This document shows positions 21,601-24,387 of a stretch of 64,000 nt of DNA, one piece after another; the first letter of the stretch is position 1, and the number at the start of each line of letters is the position of its first letter. The notes below the pieces were generated by a model. The model searched no databases and had not been told where the DNA came from. It worked only from the letters and a program-made list of their open reading frames with translations. Source of the stretch: Halothiobacillus sp. Lineage in GTDB: Bacteria > Pseudomonadota > Gammaproteobacteria > Halothiobacillales > Halothiobacillaceae. The translations under genes were made by a program, and so were the position numbers. The DNA lies in contig JADQCE010000001.1 of the NCBI GenBank assembly GCA_016278265.1, forward strand, positions 434,001 to 498,000. Direction: 5' to 3'.

Positions 21601-24387
21601 TTAGCCTCGAGCACCACCGGAGTAGGTGATCGTCGAGCCGTTCATGTCGGTACCGCTGCTGCCGGTGATCTTGGATGCCGGAACATCCGGACGCGGCACT
21701 TCACGGTTGACCCAGGCATTGCGTACGGCACCACGAGCCTCACCACGCAGGGACGGGTTACGGCCCTGGGCCCACTGACCCTCGGTACCGGTCACCGAAC
21801 CATTGCGCGACCAGTCATCACCAGAGATGCGGCAGCGTTCACCACCTTCTCCCGTGACGCGCTCACGCATCTGCGTTTCAGGCGCACATTGCAGCGTGGC
21901 GTCAGCCGGAGCGGCAGCCGGGATCTCCGGTTGCGGCTCTGAGGCTGCCACCGGCTGCGCCGGCGCGTTCTGAGTCGGTGCCGGAGCAACCGGGGCAGGT
22001 GCGGGTGCCGGGGCTGCGGCCGGTGTCGGCGCAGGTGTCGGCATGATCGAACCCATCCGCGGATGCGAGGCGCTCGGCTCAGGGTGACGGAACTCCGGCG
22101 TACCCGTGATCAGTCCCATCGCCATGTTGCCGGGGCCCGTGATACGGCCACCACCCTGGTCAAAGGAACTGCCCGTGACGCGACCGCGAGCGGCGCGTGC
22201 CGGCGTGTTCACGCTGAAGTCCTCGGGGGCCGTGATCGGCTCCTGGGACGGGGCGTAAGCAGCCTGTGGCACGTACCGAGCACTCGGTTGGGTCCGCGCG
22301 GCCAGCGGATGGCTGGTCGGAGCGGCACAACCGGTGTGCAATGCGTTGGCGTAGGGCGTGCCACTGACGTAGTGGTCGTGACCGTACTCGTTGCCGGTTA
22401 CCTCCTCGGTCCAACCCATCGGCGTACCGCCAATGGACTGGCCTTCGCAGGTCATCGACGTCTCGACCTTCTCAGCGTGGGGTGCGGGCGAACCCGAGCA
22501 GTAGGCATCATAGTGTTCAGTGCCGTAATACTCGGTACCGGTGACGGGCATGCACCCCCCTTGCTCGTCACCGGACATCTTTGGGTGATGGTCGACGCGC
22601 TGACCAGTCAGTCCACGACCCGCGAGGGTGTGCATGGACTGAACCTTGTCGACGCCGCCACCGCAAAAACGCGGTTCGCTGTACTGAGAACCCGTGAGAC
22701 GCGAGCAAGAGCCTGGCTCGTTACCCGTCACGCGCTCGCTGCGGTCCACGAGATTACCCGTGATCCGCTCGCCGTGACGCGACTGGTCGACGCCGACCTT
22801 GTCGTAGCCCGGCTCGGGACGCGTGTCGCAGAACGACTCGTACTGCTCGAAGCTCAGGTACTGGGTACCGGAGACATTGCGGCAGGTGCCCGGCTCGTCA
22901 CCCGTGACATGGCTGGAGCGGCCAATGGCGGTGCCCGACACGGCGCGACCCGTGTAGGTGTGCGTTTCCGCCACCTTCTTCGGTGCCCCGTTGATGGTCA
23001 TCCGCGCTACGCCGGAATCCGCGTACTCGGACCCGGTGATCGACCGGTTTGCGCCGGTCTCCCCACCAGTGGCCCGGGCAGGACGGAACTCGTCGCTACC
23101 GGTCACACGCATCTGCTTCTCGGTCCGACCTTCCACGACCTTGTTGGCGTGGGTAGGACGGGCCTTGGTGCCGCAGAACGATTGCAGGTCTTCGCTGCTC
23201 AGGTACTCGGTACCGGTCACGGACTCGCAAGTTCCGCGCTCGTCACCGGTGACCTGGTTGGCTCGACCTACCGCGGTGCCGCTGACGCCGTGACCGCGGG
23301 CGGTCGTCGACGTGCGGACCTTCGGCGCGTTCGGCTGCGGGCGGGTGGAGCAGAACGATTCATACTGCTCGTTACCGACATACTCGGTACCGGAAATCAC
23401 CCGGCAGCTGCCGGATTCGTTACCCGAAACGCGACGGCTGCGCTCCACCTGGGTGCCCTTTACCTCACGGCCGGAAATCGTGTGACCGGTTTCCACCTTT
23501 TTTGGCGCGGACGCCTCGCTGGTGGCTTCCGGCTTGCGACGTCCGGTAGGACGGCAGGACGGGGCGCTGCCCCGGCCGTACTGGCACAGCATCTCGCGAT
23601 GGCGCATGGCCGCTTCGCGTCCACTGGCACTGGTGTCCAGATAACCCGGAACCTGGTAACCCACACGACCCGGACCGCCCTGCGAGGCCGGCTTGGCCGG
23701 CAACGCACGCTTGCCCTTGTTTGCCATCGCCTCACGGCGAGCCTGGCAAATCTGGCGCACGCGGTTGGCCTGGGGGCCAAGGCGGGCCGGACGCTTTTTG
23801 GCGACCGTGCAGAGCGACTCGAACGAAGCCTCATGCTCGACGGAGTCGGCCTGGGTGTCGTTGCTAGCCGGTGCCGGCTTCGACTGCGAGCGAACCTCGT
23901 CAGCGAAGGGCATCTGCTTGCGACCCGGGCCGCCCTGAGAGGCGGGCTTCGGCGGGAGTGCGCTCTTGCCGTACTTCGCCATGGCTTGGCGACGGGTACG
24001 GCAGACGGACCGCACCAGGTCCGCCTCGGAACCGTATTGACTCGGATCGGACTCGGCGAGCGAGCACATCTCGTCAACGGATTCGTCGGTGGACCCGGAT
24101 GCGTGGGATTGTGAGTTGGCAGCGCCGTTGCTGCCGGAATCCCGCGATGCCGCGGGGTTCTGACGAGCGGCCGACGCGGCCTTTTTCCAGGTCGAGGTGC
24201 TGGCGTTCTTGCCGTGTGCAGACAACTGGGCACGACGGGCGCGGGACAGTTCCTTGCCGGTCAGACCGGCGAGGCTGCCGCCACCCTGAGAAGCGGCCGC
24301 GGTGTTGCCACCACGGGAAAGCTCCTCGCGTCGGGCGCGAGCTGCTGCACGATTTCTGGTTGAGTTGTTTCCAGATTGTACAGGCAT
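21601..24387 (-). CDS. csoS2: CsoS2, alpha-carboxysome scaffold protein
   Basis: The 928-residue, largely disordered repeat protein starts at 24387; the longer frame to 24444 has no conserved residues. The N-terminal domain (to about residue 295) has four or five basic N-peptides of the RxxRRxxLxxxG type (for example RARREELSRGG, RARRAQLSAHG, RTRRQAMAKYG, QARREAMANKG) that bind Rubisco. The middle region has seven repeats, each starting K-V and containing VSG/VTG-x(n)-TGxEY motifs and paired cysteines. The C-terminal domain (about residue 740 to end) holds the shell-anchoring repeats. It links Rubisco to the shell and is essential for assembly. A dnaX-like slippery heptamer lies at the NTD/middle boundary, see separate entry. 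Confidence 0.95.
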   Translation of the reverse strand: MPVQSGNNSTRNRAAARARREELSRGGNTAAASQGGGSLAGLTGKELSRARRAQLSAHGKNASTSTWKKAASAARQNPAASRDSGSNGAANSQSHASGSTDESVDEMCSLAESDPSQYGSEADLVRSVCRTRRQAMAKYGKSALPPKPASQGGPGRKQMPFADEVRSQSKPAPASNDTQADSVEHEASFESLCTVAKKRPARLGPQANRVRQICQARREAMANKGKRALPAKPASQGGPGRVGYQVPGYLDTSASGREAAMRHREMLCQYGRGSAPSCRPTGRRKPEATSEASAPKKVETGHTISGREVKGTQVERSRRVSGNESGSCRVISGTEYVGNEQYESFCSTRPQPNAPKVRTSTTARGHGVSGTAVGRANQVTGDERGTCESVTGTEYLSSEDLQSFCGTKARPTHANKVVEGRTEKQMRVTGSDEFRPARATGGETGANRSITGSEYADSGVARMTINGAPKKVAETHTYTGRAVSGTAIGRSSHVTGDEPGTCRNVSGTQYLSFEQYESFCDTRPEPGYDKVGVDQSRHGERITGNLVDRSERVTGNEPGSCSRLTGSQYSEPRFCGGGVDKVQSMHTLAGRGLTGQRVDHHPKMSGDEQGGCMPVTGTEYYGTEHYDAYCSGSPAPHAEKVETSMTCEGQSIGGTPMGWTEEVTGNEYGHDHYVSGTPYANALHTGCAAPTSHPLAARTQPSARYVPQAAYAPSQEPITAPEDFSVNTPARAARGRVTGSSFDQGGGRITGPGNMAMGLITGTPEFRHPEPSASHPRMGSIMPTPAPTPAAAPAPAPAPVAPAPTQNAPAQPVAASEPQPEIPAAAPADATLQCAPETQMRERVTGEGGERCRISGDDWSRNGSVTGTEGQWAQGRNPSLRGEARGAVRNAWVNREVPRPDVPASKITGSSGTDMNGSTITYSGGARG
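23497..23503 (-). promoter_or_regulatory. Candidate -1 frameshift heptamer in csoS2
   Basis: In the csoS2 frame the codons at residues 295-297 read CCA AAA AAG, giving the canonical slippery heptamer A AAA AAG used in E. coli dnaX. A GAGG motif stands 10 nt upstream, as in dnaX. After a -1 slip translation would add GGNRSHDFRP and stop at TGA, giving an about 307-residue protein made only of the Rubisco-binding domain. A GGAAA/TTTCC stem downstream could stimulate slipping. CsoS2 is known to use programmed frameshifting in Halothiobacillus, but the site there is thought to give a longer short form. Confidence 0.45.

Follow-up and report, generated by a model that had tools for sequence, protein, structure and literature searches.

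Does csoS2, the scaffold gene of the alpha-carboxysome, carry a second -1 frameshift signal besides the known one that gives rise to CsoS2A? The question is raised by a 64,000-nucleotide (nt) stretch of DNA from Halothiobacillus sp. (assembly GCA_016278265.1, contig JADQCE010000001.1, positions 434,001 to 498,000), here called the window, which has an alpha-carboxysome operon on its minus strand, and whose csoS2 gene contains a slippery A_AAA_AAG heptamer at the start of its middle region (the early site). Comparison of related genes points to a second slip-like signal in csoS2, additional to the known CsoS2A site and kept across two related genera. Of the readings considered for this signal, none is as likely as a real, probably weak, second -1 frameshift, which we put forward tentatively, as having close to an even chance of being correct. 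Coordinates of all features are given in Table 1.

A csoS2 match was obtained in 17 of the 27 genomes of the family, comprising 13 long and four short forms. Nine of the long genes belong to genus g1 (Guyparkeria-type) and four to genus g2 (Halothiobacillus-type), one of the latter (L020) ending soon after the repeat-6 shift site of CsoS2A. As an initial annotation of the window had pointed out, the codons CCA AAA AAG lie in the csoS2 frame, the Shine-Dalgarno (SD)-like motif GAGG stands 10 nt upstream of the heptamer, and slippage by -1 would lead to a stop after ten codons; translation of the -1 frame indeed gives ten more codons (GGNRSHDFRP) followed by TGA, and the computed product of 307 amino acids (aa) from MPVQSG agrees with the N-terminal product of about 307 residues that had been suggested. 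The products consisting of the N-terminal domain only (N-only) are predicted to be 304–307 aa long in Guyparkeria-type and 252–265 aa in Halothiobacillus-type genes, with 261 aa for H. neapolitanus. The placement of the heptamer exactly at the boundary between N-terminal domain and repeats holds by the repeat motif, as the first KV-type repeat of the middle region (motif from PMC12918739, cited, as are all papers below, from excerpts) takes its K from the second Lys of CCA AAA AAG. The Pfam CsoS2_M match starts about 85 codons before the heptamer. An internal translation start was considered as an alternative to frameshifting and rejected, since inspection by eye only revealed no ATG, GTG or TTG at a sensible distance.

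Conservation in relatives had been named beforehand as one point on which the proposal could fail, and here it stood: every one of the family's 13 long csoS2 genes has the heptamer, 11 in the form AAAAAAG and two in the form AAAAAAA, whereas the four short forms lack it. In-frame X_XXY_YYZ heptamers were seen at 12 codon columns in one or more of the long genes, and in all 13 at exactly two, the early site and repeat 6. Among 28 Pro columns with an invariant amino acid, CCA occurs in 15 and is fixed in all sequences only at these same two sites; among 12 such Lys columns, AAA occurs in ten and is fixed in all sequences only at the early site. In the Guyparkeria-type genes, CCA is found in 1–2 of the nine sequences at eight other Pro columns, and the other PKKV is encoded by CCG AAR AAG in eight of nine and with CCA in none. 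Over 464 kilobases of the genome CCA makes up 7.6% of Pro codons and AAA 13.8% of Lys codons, and an in-frame A_AAA_AAG/A occurs only three times (378 genes, simple script), one of these being in csoS2. The region encoding KPEATS-EASAPKKV has the fifth lowest synonymous difference in Guyparkeria-type genes, preceded by repeat 6, the sequence ahead of the start codon, a segment lying upstream of repeat 6, and VEGRTEKQMRVTGSD; two sliding windows placed on the early site gave nominal p-values of 0.0036 and 0.016 for synonymous conservation, which are not significant at the level of the gene. Conservation of the heptamer supports the early site more than the sequence of one genome could show.

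The repeat-6 site, which lies at a different place and has the form C_CCA_AAR, served as an internal positive control. Its tail in the window csoS2 agrees with the 3-aa -1 tail described for H. neapolitanus CsoS2A (PMC5009743), and its conservation in the across-group synonymous test was reached by 0 of 1000 permutations. The minimum free energy (MFE) of its known stem has a z-score of 0.09 in an 86-nt segment and of -2.0 to -3.7 in 45 nt, which shows how coarse a measure such z-scores are for these genes. Strong synonymous constraint was also seen about 60–100 nt upstream of the repeat-6 site, at window positions 22689-22645 (SQYSEPRFCGGGVDK), where a possible CCGC-GTYTTT-GCGG hairpin could be recognized by eye in Guyparkeria-type genes; the known repeat-6 signal may include this stretch too.

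Frameshift stimulators were evaluated with published ranges, i.e. an SD-like motif 6–17 nt upstream and a hairpin of 17–140 nt starting 4–10 nt downstream (PMC4066793). GAGG lies at a permitted distance in the window csoS2 and in 10 of the 13 long genes (nine of nine Guyparkeria-type, one of four Halothiobacillus-type), against a background of 6–16% of positions in these genes. Downstream, ACCGGTCACAC begins 6 nt after the heptamer in all 13. In the four Halothiobacillus-type genes this arm pairs about 66 nt downstream through 8–11 base pairs (bp), placing it in the top 0.3–2.3% of positions per gene, and both start and span of the hairpin fall within the above ranges (PMC4066793); folding of 75 nt gave z-scores of -3.8, -0.8, -0.7 and -3.5. 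In the Guyparkeria-type genes, a perfect 12-nt complement of the longer arm ACCGGTCACACG lies 392 nt downstream (23109-23098), identical in nine of nine. In L008 no other Watson-Crick inverted repeat of the gene is as long as this pair; just one other has at least 11 nt, and it is not conserved. The long helix is part of the MFE structure of 415 nt in all nine genes (12 pairs in eight, 11 in one) and of the consensus fold, with mean pair probabilities of 0.94–0.997.

We propose that ribosomes on CCA AAA AAG, with tRNA-Lys(UUU), would slip by -1 to AAA AAA, aided by the upstream GAGG in the ten genes that have it and by arm pairing from 6–7 nt downstream, the partner lying about 66 nt away in Halothiobacillus-type and perhaps 392 nt away in Guyparkeria-type genes. 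The early stop would then produce an N-only CsoS2 beside CsoS2A and CsoS2B. Slippage would probably take place at a level well below the approximately 50% of repeat 6. The N-only protein might bind Rubisco without anchoring it to the shell, and could in this way tune Rubisco recruitment, or the early stop might lower expression of the distal cso genes. The early site is an in-frame heptamer of high shiftiness: A_AAA_AAG is among the three most efficient motifs in E. coli when combined with IS911 or IS3 stimulators (PMC4066793), and the existence of a single tRNA-Lys is the stated reason for its shiftiness in E. coli dnaX (PMC5009743). In the genome under study 42 tRNA genes were found, all of which could be typed, including one tRNA-Lys(ttt) and no ctt. 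The dnaX gene of this genome, examined as a positive control, has no A_AAA_AAG.

The best-surviving alternative is that the site has no function, i.e. that a conserved PKKVETGH protein motif has retained its codons by chance and that any frameshifting is background noise. We regard this as the less likely reading in view of the exclusive fixation of CCA at the two slippery sites, its scarcity at the eight other Pro columns and the long branches at fourfold sites between the two gene groups. Under a neutral tree model the presence of CCA in all 13 genes has p 6e-4 to 3e-3 and that of AAA 0.007 (0.006–0.03 and 0.02, respectively, conditional on the reference codon), but these estimates are not independent of each other and are rough, as the tree, based on 334 fourfold columns, sets the Halothiobacillus-type genes inside the Guyparkeria-type and has some near-zero branches. 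Other observations fit the absence of function or weigh against a frameshift at the early site. The amino acids are invariant at this place, and the synonymous windows are not significant gene-wide (across-group family-wise error rates 0.59 and 0.23). L018 and L019 use both CCA and AAA frequently, and in L020 AAA is not rare. In csoSCA, cbbS and cbbL of nine species, AAA is invariant in two of the four Lys columns that ever have it and CCA in none of two Pro columns; adding csoS4A (six species) and csoS4B (five species) brings this to 4/6 and 1/3. Since AAA is often invariant in neighbouring genes too, AAA retention alone is weak evidence. Nor is the string CCAAAAAAGGT itself enriched, occurring once in the genome against twice for the reversed control. 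A short-form gene of genus g2 (L024) has an A_AAA_AAG in a different repeat, at codon 315 in a PKKVE context and with a -1 stop after one codon, which was not found in the other three short forms. Outside the family, the early site is absent at this place in all 13 csoS2 genes aligned (chosen from 67 open reading frames), of which eight have the repeat-6 site.

The stimulators and the decoding machinery also supply such counter-evidence. The SD-like motif is missing in three of the four Halothiobacillus-type genes, and the two genes with A_AAA_AAA, for which a far lower shiftiness than that of A_AAA_AAG is described in E. coli (PMC5009743), are both of this type. In L018 and L019 complements of the arm that are equally long or longer lie 737 nt downstream. 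The local fold of the Guyparkeria-type genes is ordinary (z-scores -0.4 to 1.2, with 48–82% of gene positions as good), and the span of their long helix exceeds the 17–140 nt hairpin range (PMC4066793). Shuffling gives this helix little weight: synonymous shuffles reached 12 bp in 6 of 1500 cases under a 420-nt limit, which was chosen after the 392 nt had been seen, and in 42 of 3000 without a distance limit, while with the 5' arm fixed a 12-nt complement appeared in 502 of 3000 (one gene), presumably because the codings ACCGGT and GTGACCGGT of the TG and VTG motifs are complementary. The helix shows no covariation, as its arms never vary, and translating ribosomes ahead should open it; its remaining weight lies in the identity of both arms in nine of nine Guyparkeria-type genes. 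A search of Rfam with window positions 22900-23700 gave no match at E-values up to 5. Finally, the 42 tRNAs include neither Ile(gat) nor Ala(tgc), which shows that the list is incomplete, and a Lys(ctt) gene is therefore possible.

Published evidence on CsoS2 products points in the same direction. No third CsoS2 form, and no early -1 product, was found in a literature search that included the available excerpts of PMC5009743, PMC12918739, PMC11365436, PMC9040747, PMC11481516, PMC12312397, PMC6180065 and PMC4499774. N-terminally tagged H. neapolitanus CsoS2 expressed in E. coli yielded two affinity-purified forms according to the excerpted text (PMC4499774). In L018, taken as H. neapolitanus, the early site is A_AAA_AAG, followed by a TGA after one further codon and by a 9-bp stem; a strong shift at this signal should have yielded a third tagged species; either the shift would be weak, or small bands were left undescribed. 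The N-only form need not occur in purified carboxysomes, since uptake of CsoS2A into recombinant shells runs through the middle region (PMC11481516); it might enter them along with Rubisco. Bands of 15–40 kDa in recombinant carboxysomes are possibly E. coli proteins (PMC9040747).

A second alternative, which we judge improbable, is that the conserved RNA elements (arm, SD-like motif and A-run) pause ribosomes or stabilize the mRNA at the border of the N-terminal and middle regions without productive frameshifting, for example to allow co-translational Rubisco binding by the N-terminal domain. Conservation of ACCGGTCACAC in 13/13 and of GAGG in 10/13 genes would be explained in this way, and window positions 23124-23094 (TEKQMRVTGSD) comprise ten degenerate codons in a row that are invariant in nine of nine Guyparkeria-type genes, of which the long helix would account for the RVTG part but not for the nearby TEKQM. 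Pausing alone, however, does not need CCA AAA AAR, which is kept in 13/13. More doubtful still is an extended form of the proposed frameshift, in which two -1 sites on one mRNA, both at domain borders, produce a three-step csoS2 series (N, N+M, N+M+C) and the first site is driven in Guyparkeria by the 12-bp, 392-nt helix; if true, the early shift would, through this helix, depend on whether ribosomes occupy the message further downstream, and the N-only share would follow the rate of csoS2 translation. Transcriptional slippage on the A6/A7 run, yielding mRNAs with an extra or missing A and short products, is very improbable: it has a precedent in the dnaX gene of Thermus, which has two tRNA-Lys (PMC5009743), and the run is A7 in two genes, but it is just A6 in the other 11, and the spacing of both SD-like motif and arm, together with the one tRNA-Lys(UUU) found, speaks for ribosomal slippage.

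The E. coli dnaX signal has an SD-like motif 10 nt upstream of its heptamer and a stem close downstream. The proposed csoS2 frameshift resembles this layout, which had already been recognized in the initial annotation, in its SD-like motif at 10 nt and its pairing arm close behind the heptamer, and as far as the excerpts describe the dnaX gamma subunit, it would share the A_AAA_AAG, the decoding by a single tRNA-Lys(UUU) and, as predicted, a truncated product after a -1 stop. The heptamer, the one tRNA-Lys(UUU) found and the conserved arm fit this likeness, which fails for the SD-like motif in three of four Halothiobacillus-type genes and for the local stem, which is not unusual in Guyparkeria-type genes; the dnaX hairpin is compact, whereas the csoS2 partner lies 66 or 392 nt away. 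With the repeat-6 frameshift of H. neapolitanus CsoS2A, the early site shares the gene, the -1 direction, a heptamer that involves CCA and Lys codons (13/13 genes) and a predicted truncated product, but it differs in its position, where the middle region begins, in its A_AAA_AAR heptamer and in a predicted product limited to the N-terminal domain. There is also a parallel with the long and short forms of CcmM in beta-carboxysomes, where products that include or lack a domain come from a single scaffold gene; CcmM is a different gene of another carboxysome type, and its short form is not known to arise by -1 frameshifting. For CsoS2A and CsoS2B the CcmM analogy has been drawn previously (PMC12312397, PMC4499774).

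The csoS2 gene of H. neapolitanus serves as the model for how alpha-carboxysomes assemble and is transferred into E. coli and plants, and an unnoticed Rubisco-binding fragment, if it exists, would affect stoichiometry, condensates and construct design. By the general rule of trypsin digestion, the N-only product would be barely visible to ordinary tryptic proteomics: in the four Halothiobacillus-type genes the tail after KK is a single residue (G or S), and the predicted tail peptides of the Guyparkeria-type product are GGNR or GGDR, and SHDFRP.

Table 1. Features of the csoS2 region, in window coordinates
Feature	Position	Strand	Basis and conservation
csoS2, alpha-carboxysome scaffold, 928 aa from MPVQSG	21601..24387	-	open reading frame; tblastn and PF12288 matches (own genome, relatives)
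SD-like GAGG, 10 nt upstream of heptamer	23514..23517	-	sequence; equal distance in 9/9 Guyparkeria-type, 1/4 Halothiobacillus-type
Slippery heptamer A_AAA_AAG, codons CCA AAA AAG, csoS2 frame	23497..23503	-	sequence; A_AAA_AAG or A_AAA_AAA in 13/13 long csoS2
5' pairing arm ACCGGTCACACG, from 6 nt after heptamer	23479..23490	-	ACCGGTCACAC at +6 in 13/13; full 12 nt identical in 9/9 Guyparkeria-type
TGA, -1 frame stop of predicted 307-aa product, tail KKGGNRSHDFRP	23465..23467	-	equal tail length in 9/9 Guyparkeria-type genes
Possible 3' arm CGTGTGACCGGT, perfectly complementary to the 5' arm over 12 nt	23098..23109	-	place and letters identical in 9/9 Guyparkeria-type
CsoS2A shift site C_CCA_AAG, repeat 6, -1 stop (TGA) after 3 codons	22579..22585	-	13/13 long csoS2; internal positive control
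Stem-loop downstream of repeat-6 shift site, outer stem 9 bp	22538..22574	-	folding

The window csoS2 is itself Guyparkeria-like: among six named loci with a relative (three from Guyparkeria and one each from Halothiobacillus sp., Halothiobacillaceae and Wenzhouxiangella sp.), the nearest is from Guyparkeria, with 99% identity. The gene is presumably highly expressed here. The open frame of csoSCA, as mechanically listed, starts at a GTG directly after the csoS2 stop (window 21600/21601), an arrangement that may indicate translational coupling.

In other families, a slippery Lys heptamer near the same border was seen at two related loci among the 22 open reading frames with the border motif, which is absent from 45 of the 67, and these cases were not used as evidence. 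C_CCA_AAA occurs near the border of the N-terminal and middle regions at L049 codon 236, L063 codon 239 and L084 codons 228-229, the last of which also has A_AAA_AAG; -1 stops follow within 1–3 codons at all three sites, which are few in number and may have arisen by chance.

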